The notes under the pieces: generated by a model
What the model was told of the DNA's origin: nothing
Databases searched by the model: none
The model's input: only the letters and a program-made list of their open reading frames with translations
Translations under genes and position numbers: made by a program
Part shown: positions 28,311 to 32,742 of the stretch, in pieces
How the letters are laid out: every line of letters starts with the position of its first letter
How positions within the stretch are numbered: position 1 is the first letter of the stretch
From: Pantoea endophytica
Lineage (GTDB): Bacteria; Pseudomonadota; Gammaproteobacteria; Enterobacterales; Enterobacteriaceae
Length of the DNA stretch: 64,000 nt
Assembly (NCBI RefSeq): GCF_002858935.1
Contig: NZ_PJRT01000005.1
Location: forward strand, 372,001 to 436,000
Direction of reading: 5' to 3'

Positions 28311-28669
28311 AAGGTCGCCACGAATAGCGTAATGCTAGTCAGTTTAGCCAACGACGAGTGCGCAGGCCGGAGCTTCAGTGAGTGCTGCTAAACAGGGCTC
28401 ATTTGCCAGAGGCGCTGGCGCGTCTGCTGCGGCAAAAGGGCTATCCGCAGCGCTGAGGCTTTTACGTTGGGCCAGGAGCCTCACGCAGGGATGCGTGAGG
28501 CAGTTCGGGGCGGCCAGGACGGCCGATCCTCGAACGATCCGTCGGCACAACGTGAAAGCCGAAGGTACCGCGTAAGCGGCGCGAGGACGGCCCGTGACGC
28601 AGCAGATGTGTCAGTGCCCGCACCAGATTAAAAGCAAAATGCTTGCTTAACTCCATTCATGGCGACCTT
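28311..28669. repeat. Mosaic intergenic repeat, copy 2, bounded by GGTCGCCA arms
   Basis: The 359-bp stretch begins AAGGTCGCCACGAATAGCGT and ends CCATTCATGGCGACCTT, an inverted pair. Inside is the long hairpin CCTCACGCAGGGATGCGTGAGG (about 28480-28503) followed by GGCCAGGACGGCC and GACGGCCCGTGACG. It lies between converging genes (molybdoenzyme and the three-module protein). No credible ORF is present. It looks like a non-autonomous mobile repeat; a partly matching copy is at 361-705. Confidence 0.6.
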
Positions 28670-28702: not shown

Positions 28703-31700
28703 TTAAGCCGTGGTTTTCCGGTTATGGGTCAAATCTTTCACCGTTTCCGCTGCACGTTTACCGGCGAGGAACGCGTGGTCCGAGTTGTAATATTCCCACT
28801 CGCTGTAGCGCCCGGAAAGATGGATGCCTTGCGTCGCCAGCCAGCTACGAATCAGCGTGACGTTGGCGGTGCGTTGATGGTCGTACACCACATAAGCGTA
28901 CGGCATATCCACTTCGCTGGCGGTAACGATCTCATCATCGGCATTGATGATGCCGACCCGAATACAATCCGCAATGCAGCGTTCAATCAACGCATCGCCT
29001 TCGCAAGGAAGCGGCTGATCGTCGCGATAGGTCATTTCGCAGGTCAGGCCAAAACCGCCTTCTGGATTGCAGTGCGGGCTGGCGTTGCCCTGTAAAAAGA
29101 TGCGGTGGAACAGCGTGTTGCCGGGATAGTAAATCCAGTGTTTGTCGCTGATATTGGCGCGGCCAATGCCCAGATTGACGCAGCGCACCGAGATATGACG
29201 CAGTTGCTTCGCTGCTTTCTGCACCGCTTCTGGTGCAAAGCTGCCCATCAATCGCACCAGTTCTGGCAGCGGCAAGGTGCTGATCATCTGGTCATAATGA
29301 AACTGTCGACCATCACTTAACAGCACGCGCCGTTGCAACGGCTGAATTTCGCTGACGCCCGCTTCCATCTCCAGCGTGCAGTCCAGATGTGGCAGAAATC
29401 CTTCCATTAGCGCCTGAAAACCGCCGCGCAGCGGATAGCCAAAGCGCGCATTGGGGCCGACCGGCTTATCCAGCGGCGCCAGCGCGCCGGAGATGATCTG
29501 CTCCAAATCCGGCAGCGGCACGCGTCCGCCGAGCCATGAGGTTTCCATATTCACCAGCGGGGTTTTCCACAGTTTCTGGTTATACGGCAGGGCGAAATGG
29601 CGGGCGATGCCTTTGCCCCAGGTACGGAAAATAAAGCTTTCGAAATCTTCGCTCTCCGGCTGACAAACCAGGCTTTCACCATCCGGGATGGCGCCATCGG
29701 CGCAGCAATCACGCCGCGCCTCGGTGGCCACCGCCTGTAAAGCGGGAGGCGACGCATAGCGCGCTTCAATCGCGCCTAACACACACTCGCCAATCACTTC
29801 GGCAGGCAAACCATGCAGCGCCGACTGGAACGGATAGCGGGTGTAAACATCATGGCTGTAAACCCAGGCTTCACGCGTTTGCCAGTGCTGATTGTCGCCC
29901 AGCAGGATATCGTACAGGCGCAACACGTAAGGATCGTTGGAGAACATAATGTGGCCAGCGTGATCGAAGGTGAATCCCTGATCCTCGACCGAACGGCACC
30001 AGCCGCCCACGGTGGCATTTTTCTCCAGCAACACTGCGCCCGCGCCGTAGTGATAACCGGCGCTCAACCCCGTTGGCCCGGCCCCCAAAATCAAGCACGC
30101 AACGGTGTTGTGCGCCAGCGCGGGCGGAGGGGCGGCGGCTATTTCGGGATGGGAAATCTGACGTTGGGTCAGCGCCACGATATGCGCCTGCATCTCATCG
30201 ACAGTGCGATCCCACGAGGTTTCCGCAACGCGTGTCGCCATGTTTTTCGCTAGCTGATAGCGGGTTTCCACCGGCATGCTGAGCGCCGCTTCACAGGCCT
30301 GAACAAAGCTCTGATGCGAGTCGGCAATGCTCACTACGTCGGCATAGTGTCGCGCCACATCGGCAATCGCGGTGCTGACAATCGGCAACTGCGCCGCCAT
30401 GTACTCCAGCACTTTGGTGGGGCTGATAAAGCGCGTCGAAGCATTGAGCGCGAACGGCATCAGGCATAGATCCCAGCCGGCGAGAAAGTGCGGCAAGGCG
30501 GCGTACGGTTGCTGGCCGAACCAGTGCAGATTGCTGCGCTGGGGCAGGCTGGCGGCATCAATTTTCACCACCGGACCAACCATCACGATCTGCCAGTCGG
30601 GATGCGCATCCGCCAGCGCGGCAATCAGCGTCAAATCGAGGCGTTCATCAATTACGCCGTAATAGCCGAGGCGCGGTTTTGGCAGGTTTTCCTGCAGCGG
30701 ATGGCTGTTAGTGCGGTCCAGCGCCTGTTCGAAATGTCCCGCATCGACACTGCTTGGGCAGCAGAAAACCTGCGGATGGCGATGTTTCTTCGCTTCATAC
30801 AGGCTGGTGCCGCCGGTGAACACCAAATCGGCGCGGCTCAACAGCGCAGATTCACGCTGCTGAAGCTGGCGCGGCGCCTGGTTGAAGGCGGAGAGCTCAT
30901 CCATGCAGTCATAGATAATCGCGCTCGGTGTAAAGCAGGCCAGCAGCGGCAGCGCCATCGGCGTGTAAAACCACACCAGCGGCGTTTCATCGTCATCAAG
31001 CAGTTCGGCCAGCAGCGGTTGCAGCACGGCGATTTGGCTATCGTGAAAGCCAGGCGCGGCCACATCGGTATGCGGTTCGATCACCGTCACGTTTGGTGCG
31101 GGCTGATATTGGCGTAACGCGGCTTCACCGGGCTGATAAATCGGCTCTTCAATAAACACAATGCGGTGGAACTGGGCGAGGCGCGACAACAGATGCTGTG
31201 GACGTTGAAAGACAAATCCCCAACGTAAATGACTGAATACCACTAATACGGATTGTTTCATGACGCTTTCCTCTGGCCTGCTGGCCGCGGTGATAAGACC
31301 CTTAAAACGGGCTAATAATCGTTGTGATTGCTGTAATGACGCGGCATAAACCGGGTTCAGCAGACGCTTTTTGTGGGGATCGACATCCCACAATCCGCTG
31401 CGTGGCCAGTGTTCGAGATCTTCCCAAAGTGGGCGATCGATAATCGGATAAAGACAGATGCCGCGGATATCACAGCCGTTCAGCTGTGCCTGCGCGACAT
31501 CGGCGGTCACCTGGGCGATCCAGGCGGCGCGTCCGCTGCCGACGTGGCTGGTTTCCGCCAGCAAAATGGGCCGCTGGTAACGCTCAGTTAACTGCGCCAG
31601 CAGCGGATGCAGCGGCACGCGGCGCGCATCGCCCAGATGCCATTCCAGTCGGCAGCCGGACGCGGTGAGCCACTGATTGCCGTGGTAATAATTGGCGCCA

Positions 31701-32413
31701 ACCACATCGAGATAGTGCGGTTTGCCGCCGAGTTCCGGCTCGCGCAAACCGACGATCATGTCCCACGCCTGATATTGCGAAGCGTTGATATCCCGGGTGC
31801 GCTGCCGACATGCATCGCTGTCTTCATCCGGCACCACGTGAATAATCGGGTCGCAGTGCAGGAAACGCGCACGCGGATCTGCAAGGCGAATGGCGGCGCA
31901 ACCCGCCAGCGTGGCGCGAATCAATTGACGTTTAATCTCATCGGGATCGGTATGGGCATTATTACCAAACAGGCCGACAGAAATTCCCCACGCCATAAAC
32001 GAGATTTCATTCATCGGCGAATAAATGGGTGCGTCTTCATAATATTCCGCGAGGAAGCCCGCCATGCGCTGACAAAAAGCGGCGAAGCGCGGCACAAATT
32101 CGCTGGAAAATAAGGTTAAGTCATCCGGCCAGCCGTAATGGCAAAAGGTCCAGTTAATTTGCACGCCAAAGGAGCGCGCCGAATTCATGCGTTTTTTTAA
32201 ACTTTCGAGCGTGGTTTGCGGTTCCATTTCCGCCAGTCGCCAGCCAATACTTTCGCGGGCGGAGGTAATGCCAAACTGCTGCAGCGCGGCGTAATCGTTA
32301 TGGTGTTGCGATAAATGGTCGGTCAACGCATTCATTGAAAGCCGCTCGCCGAAGGGATTGATATGATCCGCTCCCTCATAACCGGCTTGCCAAAAGCTGG
32401 AAAATGGCGACAT
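28703..32413 (-). CDS. Three-module protein: glycoside hydrolase + glycosyltransferase + UGM-like FAD domain
   Basis: A continuous 1236-residue frame. Residues about 1-375 form a clan GH-A barrel (GH1-like) with SPMNEISF (acid/base E136) and LLAETSHVG (nucleophile E287). Residues about 385-750 form a GT-B glycosyltransferase with GFVFQRPQHLLSRLA, IIYDCMDELSAF and SPTKVLEYMAAQLPIVST. Residues about 770-1236 form an FAD domain like UDP-galactopyranose mutase, with LGAGPTGLSAGYH, LLEKNATVGGWCRS, DHAGHIMFSND and FGYPLRGGFQALMEG. No signal peptide. The start at 32413 follows GGGGGAAC. The domains suggest making or remodelling of an exopolysaccharide or glycolipid. An internal MKQSVLVV before the second module could allow internal initiation. 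It appears monocistronic. Confidence 0.82.
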   Translation of the reverse strand: MSPFSSFWQAGYEGADHINPFGERLSMNALTDHLSQHHNDYAALQQFGITSARESIGWRLAEMEPQTTLESLKKRMNSARSFGVQINWTFCHYGWPDDLTLFSSEFVPRFAAFCQRMAGFLAEYYEDAPIYSPMNEISFMAWGISVGLFGNNAHTDPDEIKRQLIRATLAGCAAIRLADPRARFLHCDPIIHVVPDEDSDACRQRTRDINASQYQAWDMIVGLREPELGGKPHYLDVVGANYYHGNQWLTASGCRLEWHLGDARRVPLHPLLAQLTERYQRPILLAETSHVGSGRAAWIAQVTADVAQAQLNGCDIRGICLYPIIDRPLWEDLEHWPRSGLWDVDPHKKRLLNPVYAASLQQSQRLLARFKGLITAASRPEESVMKQSVLVVFSHLRWGFVFQRPQHLLSRLAQFHRIVFIEEPIYQPGEAALRQYQPAPNVTVIEPHTDVAAPGFHDSQIAVLQPLLAELLDDDETPLVWFYTPMALPLLACFTPSAIIYDCMDELSAFNQAPRQLQQRESALLSRADLVFTGGTSLYEAKKHRHPQVFCCPSSVDAGHFEQALDRTNSHPLQENLPKPRLGYYGVIDERLDLTLIAALADAHPDWQIVMVGPVVKIDAASLPQRSNLHWFGQQPYAALPHFLAGWDLCLMPFALNASTRFISPTKVLEYMAAQLPIVSTAIADVARHYADVVSIADSHQSFVQACEAALSMPVETRYQLAKNMATRVAETSWDRTVDEMQAHIVALTQRQISHPEIAAAPPPALAHNTVACLILGAGPTGLSAGYHYGAGAVLLEKNATVGGWCRSVEDQGFTFDHAGHIMFSNDPYVLRLYDILLGDNQHWQTREAWVYSHDVYTRYPFQSALHGLPAEVIGECVLGAIEARYASPPALQAVATEARRDCCADGAIPDGESLVCQPESEDFESFIFRTWGKGIARHFALPYNQKLWKTPLVNMETSWLGGRVPLPDLEQIISGALAPLDKPVGPNARFGYPLRGGFQALMEGFLPHLDCTLEMEAGVSEIQPLQRRVLLSDGRQFHYDQMISTLPLPELVRLMGSFAPEAVQKAAKQLRHISVRCVNLGIGRANISDKHWIYYPGNTLFHRIFLQGNASPHCNPEGGFGLTCEMTYRDDQPLPCEGDALIERCIADCIRVGIINADDEIVTASEVDMPYAYVVYDHQRTANVTLIRSWLATQGIHLSGRYSEWEYYNSDHAFLAGKRAAETVKDLTHNRKTTA

Positions 32414-32742
32414 GATGTTCCCCCGGAATAACATTCAGGAAATAGCAATAAATAAAAGAAGTTAATCGTGTTATAGGGGCGCCATTTAAGGCAACCAGGG
32501 AAATCGACTGTTGAACCTAATTCAAATTATAACCACGCTTTGGCTTAGCGCAAATGGTTGAGCTGAAAAGAAAATAAGCCCAGCGTGAATTTTTCTTATT
32601 TAAGTGAAGCGGCATGAAGAAATGAAAATATTATTGTTGCGCGATTTCTTACGCTTAACTCACATAATGAAAAGAAGGGCGATGTTTAATTTATTTCATT
32701 ACTACACTTTAATTAACCCAATTCGGGTTTACGGAGGTACGT
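32414..32742. other. AT-rich intergenic region with divergent starts
   Basis: The 329 bases between the three-module gene and the small acidic protein gene hold no ORF. The rightward half is AT-rich, and ACTACACTTTAATTAA about 30-45 bases before the small ORF could be a sigma-S-type minus-10 region (CTACACT). Nothing else recognisable. Confidence 0.4.

Follow-up and report, generated by a model that had tools for sequence, protein, structure and literature searches.

A single open reading frame (ORF) in Pantoea endophytica joins a GH1-like glycosidase domain, a GT-B glycosyltransferase (GT) domain and a eukaryote-type UDP-galactopyranose mutase (UGM) domain on one polypeptide. It lies on the minus strand of a 64,000-nucleotide stretch of DNA that we refer to as the window (contig NZ_PJRT01000005.1, positions 372,001 to 436,000). 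From sequence comparison and structure prediction we consider it probable, at roughly 60%, that the protein is a cytosolic enzyme of galactofuranose (Galf) metabolism, that it represents a stress-linked gene cassette condensed into one chain, and that it also exists as a GT-UGM variant with a start of its own. In the mechanism we propose, the C-terminal flavin domain would convert UDP-galactopyranose into UDP-galactofuranose, the central GT-B domain would move Galf onto an acceptor, and the N-terminal GH1-like domain would trim or re-transfer the glycoside, while a conserved internal start would also yield a GT-UGM protein without the GH1-like part. The widespread cassette to which the protein would correspond consists of a GT, UGM or classical Glf, and a GH1-like or GH1-RmlD protein, often accompanied by a furanosidase-group GH2 and by galE, galK and galT. 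We infer the transferred sugar, the role of the GH1-like domain, the cytosolic location and the stress role in Pantoea from the lines of evidence below.

Three enzyme domains on one polypeptide

The minus-strand ORF is intact at 28703-32434 and encodes 1243 residues from the ATG at 32434. We prefer the ATG at 32413, which gives a 1236-residue protein, because its ribosome site (ccgggggaac just 5' of the codon) is better than that at 32434. An earlier note on this DNA had called the frame open throughout, which is correct once the strand is given as minus, the plus strand being interrupted by many stops. The note had also assigned the three domains and stated that their catalytic residues are kept, and on both points we agree with it: we find a GH1 fold, a GT4-type GT-B domain and a UGM domain (PDB 3ute, E 4.2e-45), with E136 and E287 in place together with the EYMAAQLP motif of the GT and the flavin-binding (FAD) motif GAGPTGLSAG. 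In Pfam the protein matches GT4-type and FAD/amine-oxidase-like domains, and its first 385 residues have no match at E 0.01.

The UGM domain occupies 28706-30118 (residues 773-1243; minus strand, as for all parts of the gene). Its nearest solved sequence relatives are eukaryote-type UGMs, of which we take 3ute and 4dsg to be the Aspergillus fumigatus (AfUGM) and Trypanosoma cruzi enzymes, respectively. The homology extends across nearly the whole domain and includes both the flavin motif and the catalytic residues. Equivalents of AfUGM R182, N207, W315, Y317, R327, Y419, R447 and Y453 are kept in all 55 aligned mutase domains, and the flavin-loop His is kept in 53 of them, the other two rows being gapped there. 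The AfUGM numbering and its correspondence to T. cruzi residues are in part presumed, and the mapping between species is our own. For T. cruzi UGM, an excerpt of the published work gives roles to His62, Arg176, Asn201, Arg327, Tyr395 and Tyr429 (PMC4192007). Unlike the eukaryotic enzymes, the window's domain is found in a bacterial host, stands C-terminal to a GT and a GH1-like domain on the same chain, and has Ala in place of AfUGM Y334. We predict that the domain has UGM activity.

The central domain (30167-31270; residues 389-756; PF13692/PF00534) belongs with the GT4-type GT-B enzymes both by its Pfam Glyco_trans_1 families and by its modelled fold (mean pLDDT 95.7). Fold neighbours of the model are a cyanobacterial sucrose-phosphate synthase (Z 32.1, root-mean-square deviation (rmsd) 3.0, 352 aligned), MshA (Z 31.0) and HepE (28.9). 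Sucrose-phosphate synthase and MshA use small soluble acceptors, which is a hint, and only a hint, that the acceptor of the window protein may be of this kind. Against the TuaH equivalog model NF047676 the domain scores 88.6 bits and does not reach the cut-off of 550.

The N-terminal domain (31280-32413; residues 8-385 in the 1243-residue numbering) is predicted to adopt a GH1-like (beta/alpha)8 fold with the catalytic pair E136/E287 (1236-residue numbering). An AlphaFold2 model built from an alignment of 44 relatives has a mean pLDDT of 94.9, and its closest PDB folds are GH1 beta-glycosidases (Z 37.4, rmsd 2.5, 344 aligned); a profile search with the domain returned GH1-type beta-glycosidase chains from E 2.9e-13. 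E136, E287, H92, N135 and Y243 are invariant in all 44 aligned domains, and the domain combines the GH1 fold with a Glu pair at NE and E. It thus resembles the GH1 beta-glycosidases in fold, in the acid/base and nucleophile Glu and in the NYY and HY motifs, and differs from them in its altered glycone motif, its fusion to synthase modules and the lack of a match to PF00232 in the window protein at E 0.01. This last point is why we call the domain GH1-like; the curated libraries, searched at E 0.01 and E 1e-5, assign nothing to it. In GH1 enzymes the Trp and Glu of WSxxDNFEW hold the pyranose glycone. This motif reads YPxxDRPLW in the family and YPIIDRPLW in the window, a replacement that makes another glycone plausible.

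The host genome also encodes a stand-alone GH1-like paralogue (L165:7858-9006, G000:C11) beside ORFs that resemble opgG, opgC and ymdC (names assigned by eye), and this paralogue occurs in 35 of 36 same-genus genomes. In all 13 copies read, the acid/base Glu is replaced by Gln (NQ) and the nucleophile is kept. Plant myrosinases carry the same acid/base change.

Conservation, mutase exchange and a probable internal start

Relatives were drawn from the best 78 of 159 matches in a genome collection, a sample of loci (given here as L numbers) that is skewed to close relatives and falls into 41 genus-level groups, with genus names assigned by hand from record titles. All three modules lie in one frame in 43 of these 78 loci, from Pantoea, Erwinia, Duganella, Massilia, Janthinobacterium, Shewanella and other beta- and gammaproteobacteria, and the fusion is therefore no assembly accident. 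The earlier note had seen a fusion of usually separate functions, which is real but not unique; nor are homologues always split into separate genes, an outcome that the note had named as counting against its own reading. Among 36 same-genus genomes, our own included, the gene is intact in 19, split over two contigs in one, frame-broken in three and missing from 13. One copy counted as intact (G019) has a stop at the extreme N-terminus of the match, yet retains an open frame of 1242 residues. Frame-broken copies were also seen at L072 and L109. Two records may be mislabelled or contaminated: 'Enterobacter ludwigii' EnVs2 (L022) carries a Pantoea-like copy of the gene that is 93% identical to the window, and an 'Acinetobacter venetianus' plasmid (CP060162; H10) scores exactly as the P. 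eucrina match.

The modules also occur in other layouts, including a GH protein plus a GT-UGM protein (L058, L059), GT-UGM alone (L062, L071, L076, L080), GT-Glf fusions (L085, L088, L089, L092-L095, L097), separate GT and Glf, and GH1-RmlD fusions. In a tree of 86 GT domains, rooted at the midpoint, a fully supported branch splits 24 rows from 62. Within the 24-row clade, classical Glf (PF03275), a distant relative of UGM, is fused or nearby in 22 rows; none was seen for L104, or for L083, where the contig stops. Within the 62-row clade, 51 rows are fused to eukaryote-type UGM and Glf lies nearby in L063, L077, L079 and L108, the remaining rows being cut by contig ends (L064, L065 and L078 among them) or having no mutase in view (L066, L067, L075, L082). 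That a single type of transferase has either of two mutase types at its side is good evidence that its donor is the product of both. Mutase and transferase are paired in a comparable way where classical Glf occurs together with galactofuranosyltransferases, for example at the galactan locus of Kingella kingae, and in our relatives Glf replaces the mutase domain. In contrast to that locus, the window ORF has no adjoining polymer or export operon and a transferase of GT4 type; for the Galf transferases of K. kingae, the part of the source available gives GT2 and predicted GT111 (PMC12269835).

The GH1-RmlD make-up (PF00232 plus PF04321) was confirmed by Pfam in all 11 proteins tested, and matches to it occur in 18 of the 78 loci. 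GH1-RmlD fusions lie near GT genes, for example at L106:5507-7738 and L085:10241-12424. On pSymA of Sinorhizobium meliloti, the GT-Glf gene is directly followed by a gene (L105:10346-13585) for a 1079-residue protein with GT4, GFO/IDH/MocA and zinc dehydrogenase parts, and then by a GT4-GH1-like fusion; Rhizobium sp. SU303 has genes similar in size and annotation in the same order.

Just before the GT domain, at 31259-31274, the fused gene carries a Shine-Dalgarno-like element, AGAGGAAA, followed by an in-frame ATG (first base 31261). An in-frame ATG directly precedes the GT domain in all 44 fused genes (the window and the 43 loci). At the last Met before the GT, the Shine-Dalgarno match is at least 4 nt in 40 of 44 genes and at least 5 nt in 29, compared with 172 and 40, respectively, of 968 other internal Met codons. 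When the better of two Met codons and a slightly wider stretch are considered, all 44 genes reach 4 nt, a count that favours the hypothesis, the like-for-like figure being 40. The gap from element to ATG is 5-7 nt in 38 of 44 genes, and a narrower Shine-Dalgarno motif gave 27/27 versus 251/1019. A control with shuffled anti-Shine-Dalgarno sequences gave a mean of 6.9 of 44 (95th percentile 26, maximum 38, observed 29). It is weak because the rows are related, and we put the weight on the internal-Met control; the rows behind the EcfG counts given below are related as well, and neither set of numbers is independent. While the element may be a relic of the fusion, it is found in two codon phases (30 and 9 genes, 5 not assigned) despite differing residues, and its retention in different phases argues for use. 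A shorter GT-UGM protein without the GH1-like part is probably also made from this start, and internal initiation near residue 385, which the earlier note had raised, is strongly supported by the conservation of the ATG and the Shine-Dalgarno enrichment.

Galactose genes, GH2 and a probable link to stress

Neighbouring genes were counted in flanks of up to 8 kb around the 78 loci, with thresholds set by hand. galK and/or galT are present at 12 loci, and any of galE, galK and galT at 20 (16 of 41 groups). All ten galE calls exceed the curated GalE cut-off, the thresholds having removed weak galE matches below 200 bits that arose with a query including upstream frame. By our estimate, which is not a computed control, galK would be expected by chance near about 0.25 of the 78 loci. 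GH2 genes occur at 30 loci (15 of 41 groups), and in Methylomagnum the genes for GT-UGM, GH2, galT and galK stand in a row. PDB matches of the Methylomagnum GH2 are 7xyr (E 1.6e-94), 7sf2 and the beta-D-galactofuranosidase 9j6n/9j6m (E 1.1e-70 and 3.7e-70). The consulted portion of a GH2 study places 9J6M in GH2_18 and the uncharacterised 7XYR in GH2_19, and describes furanose activities as specific to this GH2 group (PMC12243196). Of 31 GH2 ORFs, 30 retain the catalytic NE and EFGG motifs, and the remaining one is a fragment. In most of the 31, a few residues separate a plausible start codon (chosen by eye) from the GH2 domain, with no evident signal peptide, and hydrolysis and galactose salvage therefore look cytosolic.

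Together, the pairing with Glf, the galE, galK and galT genes and the furanosidase-branch GH2 near relatives make Galf the likely sugar. The suggestion in the earlier note that the protein could make, transfer and trim a furanose is supported by the UGM residues, the Glf exchange, the Leloir genes and the furanosidase-group GH2; the GH1-like domain, for its part, may trim Galf. Its remark that the gene stands alone without a polysaccharide operon is true of the window and fails for many relatives, whose neighbours suggest a pathway. One further candidate gene, L035:285-2246, was rejected, as it has no Pfam match and looks like an antisense frame of GH2. An M24 peptidase-like gene lies beside GH2 or gal genes at five of the 78 loci, L062 (6561-7685), L044, L070, L085 and L093, and sits between galT and galK in L062, L070, L085 and L093.

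Several lineages have stress-type genes next to the cassette, coding for Mn-catalase, ferritin-like, DUF892, Zn-alcohol dehydrogenase, Ku/LigD and YetF proteins. Of 28 regions upstream of alphaproteobacterial GT-Glf genes, 10 contain an exact EcfG motif (GGAAC-N16/17-CGTT) and 16 contain it with at most one mismatch; one subset of eight regions contributes 2 and 4 of these, and the other, 20 regions from 19 genomes, contributes 8 and 12. Random 400-base stretches of the same loci contain the motif exactly in 2.2% and with at most one mismatch in 8.6%. Across 120 permutations of the motif, the mean counts among the 28 regions were 0.14 exact and 2.35 with at most one mismatch, with maxima of 2 and 8; on the reverse strand of these regions the counts were 2 and 5. 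All 19 genomes have NepR, and are therefore alphaproteobacteria with the EcfG general stress system, while among 14 control genomes NepR was found only in Caulobacter. In one genome (G353), the distance between NepR and the GT-Glf gene is about 5 kb. According to excerpts of a published study, EcfG-dependent genes include Ku, catalases, ferritin-like proteins and a Zn-alcohol dehydrogenase, as well as two entries with EcfG-like motifs, #1750 ('Glycosyltransferase') and #1751 ('Glycosidases'), that may or may not belong to the present family (PMC6599016). A look through other papers on stress regulons for glf and kindred terms found none of them. In the sections seen, papers on Salmonella desiccation (PMC5596212) and Deinococcus dr_A0367 (PMC7022480) mention a mutase. 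From these motif counts and neighbours, the cassette seems to be part of the alphaproteobacterial general stress response.

Among enteric relatives, the sequence CTATACT, which resembles the -10 element of sigma-S (RpoS) promoters, is present in 7 of 19 upstream regions, the highest count among 210 permutations (mean 0.53, next 6). The window's own genome has no NepR match, so the EcfG test does not apply to it; the Pantoea gene may itself be under stress control.

The window ORFs match the gene order of a plasmid of Pantoea sp. BRR-3P, where one flank contains MmgE/PrpD, amidohydrolase, GNAT, dehydrogenase and flavin oxidoreductase genes, and the other a toxin-antitoxin pair followed by molybdopterin oxidoreductase and amino-acid ABC (ATP-binding cassette) transporter genes. 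Elsewhere, the host genome (G000) has two GalE matches above the cut-off and one galK. No classical Glf was detected in it at E 1e-20, and the fused protein would therefore be its only recognisable source of UDP-Galf; three of 40 Pantoea genomes have a classical Glf.

Alternative readings and wider meaning

A soluble Galf compound fits the cytosolic breakdown, the salvage, the stress genes and the fold neighbours of the GT. Nostoc commune is reported to make Galf-(1-6) oligosaccharides on 1,4-anhydrogalactitol (Wieneke et al. 2007, listed among the references of PMC3826126). Five cyanobacterial loci (L085, L089, L092, L093, L094) combine GT-Glf, GH1-RmlD and galK (in L094 galK is cut short by the locus edge), and two of them also have GH2 and galT. 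The organism group of Nostoc thus carries GT-Glf plus GH1-RmlD (L089, L092, L094), whereas the window protein has no RmlD domain. We speculate that the RmlD-like part could make the reduced end of a Galf oligosaccharide. More broadly, and only tentatively, we suggest that the cassette could be a cross-phylum pathway for a stress-induced soluble galactofuranoside, a Galf oligosaccharide protectant, made by the GT and mutase and recycled by the cytosolic GH2 furanosidase and Leloir enzymes. Such a pathway would provide the genes behind the Galf oligosaccharides of Nostoc, and in Pantoea and its relatives it would be carried on one chain, with the dose of the GH1-like part set by internal translation initiation.

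Several observations weigh against assigning the protein to stress-linked Galf metabolism. At least one stress neighbour is found at 22 of the 78 loci (15 of 41 groups), a figure that stands without a control rate; the EcfG motif is inexact in 18 of 28 upstream regions, with three regions having three mismatches at best; and the RpoS-like CTATACT is absent from the window's own clade, which has TATAAT instead. No galactose gene lies beside the window ORF, no polysaccharide gene was seen in the BRR-3P flanks either, and a GH2 query matched none of 40 Pantoea genomes in a search run without a positive control; the informative neighbours come from other genera. Because no PDB chain matches the GT domain by sequence, its donor sugar is predicted indirectly. 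The Ala at the position of AfUGM Y334 is a further point against, in that the substrate may be handled differently. Moreover, the top PDB match of the GH2, 7xyr, was deposited as a beta-glucuronidase, and is described in an excerpt of PMC12243196 as uncharacterised and as having a changed NE motif.

Part of the evidence bears on where the product goes. After the cassette, five records (three of Azospirillum, and one each of Skermanella and Chimaeribacter) have an ABC transporter gene, which speaks against a purely soluble product; the two of these five transporters that were checked by Pfam have transmembrane and nucleotide-binding domains, and that of Chimaeribacter is nearest to MsbA-related models. 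Since lipid acceptors are common for GT4 enzymes and the NCBIfam relative of the GT, TuaH, is a teichuronic acid protein, the product could be a Galf glycolipid or a surface glycan that is exported through flipping by an MsbA-like transporter. We regard this as rather unlikely: none of the 78 loci has a match above 400 bits to either of the two exporters checked by Pfam, the annotation tables of the relatives examined list no flippase or polymerase, and the seeming lack of a GH2 signal peptide points to cytosolic breakdown. A different sugar, for instance another UDP-hexose handled by a UGM relative, is a poor prospect in our judgement. The equivalent of AfUGM Y334 is Ala in all 55 mutase domains, so substrate handling may differ, scores are under the cut-off for every NCBIfam model matched, and the GH1-like glycone motif departs from that of GH1, yet classical Glf takes the mutase's place beside the same GT, in the company of Leloir genes and furanosidase-group GH2. 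That the gene is an accidental or decaying fusion on a plasmid, with no selected function, seems highly improbable even in view of the broken frames (three of 36 same-genus genomes, L072 and L109) and of its absence from 13 of the 36, as the modules share one frame at 43 of 78 loci across beta- and gammaproteobacteria and neither the GH1-like nor the UGM domain varies in its catalytic residues.

Read as an enzyme of Galf metabolism, the window protein would be the most compact form seen of the stress-linked cassette. We found no description of the fusion or the cassette in the literature searched, the reach of which lay mostly outside subscription journals. What is known of Galf concerns mostly the surface glycans of pathogens and fungi; a mutase, a transferase and a glycosidase on one chain, tied through relatives to stress and salvage, suggest that Galf also serves plant- and soil-associated bacteria as a stress metabolite. 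The cassette offers a concrete gene set for Galf oligosaccharide biosynthesis, and the fused enzyme lends itself, as a single protein, to the study of mutase-to-transferase channelling and is a clear example of probable internal initiation.

Two minor features flank the gene. A candidate promoter, TTGCGC-16-TATAAT, recognised by consensus match only, lies at 32525-32553 on the minus strand, and GGTTATAATT in this region is common to the window, L021, L022 and L023. Beyond the other end of the fused gene, the intergenic region at 28457-28560 on the plus strand matches the Rfam family TwoAYGGAY (RF01731) with 44.3 bits against a cut-off of 43.

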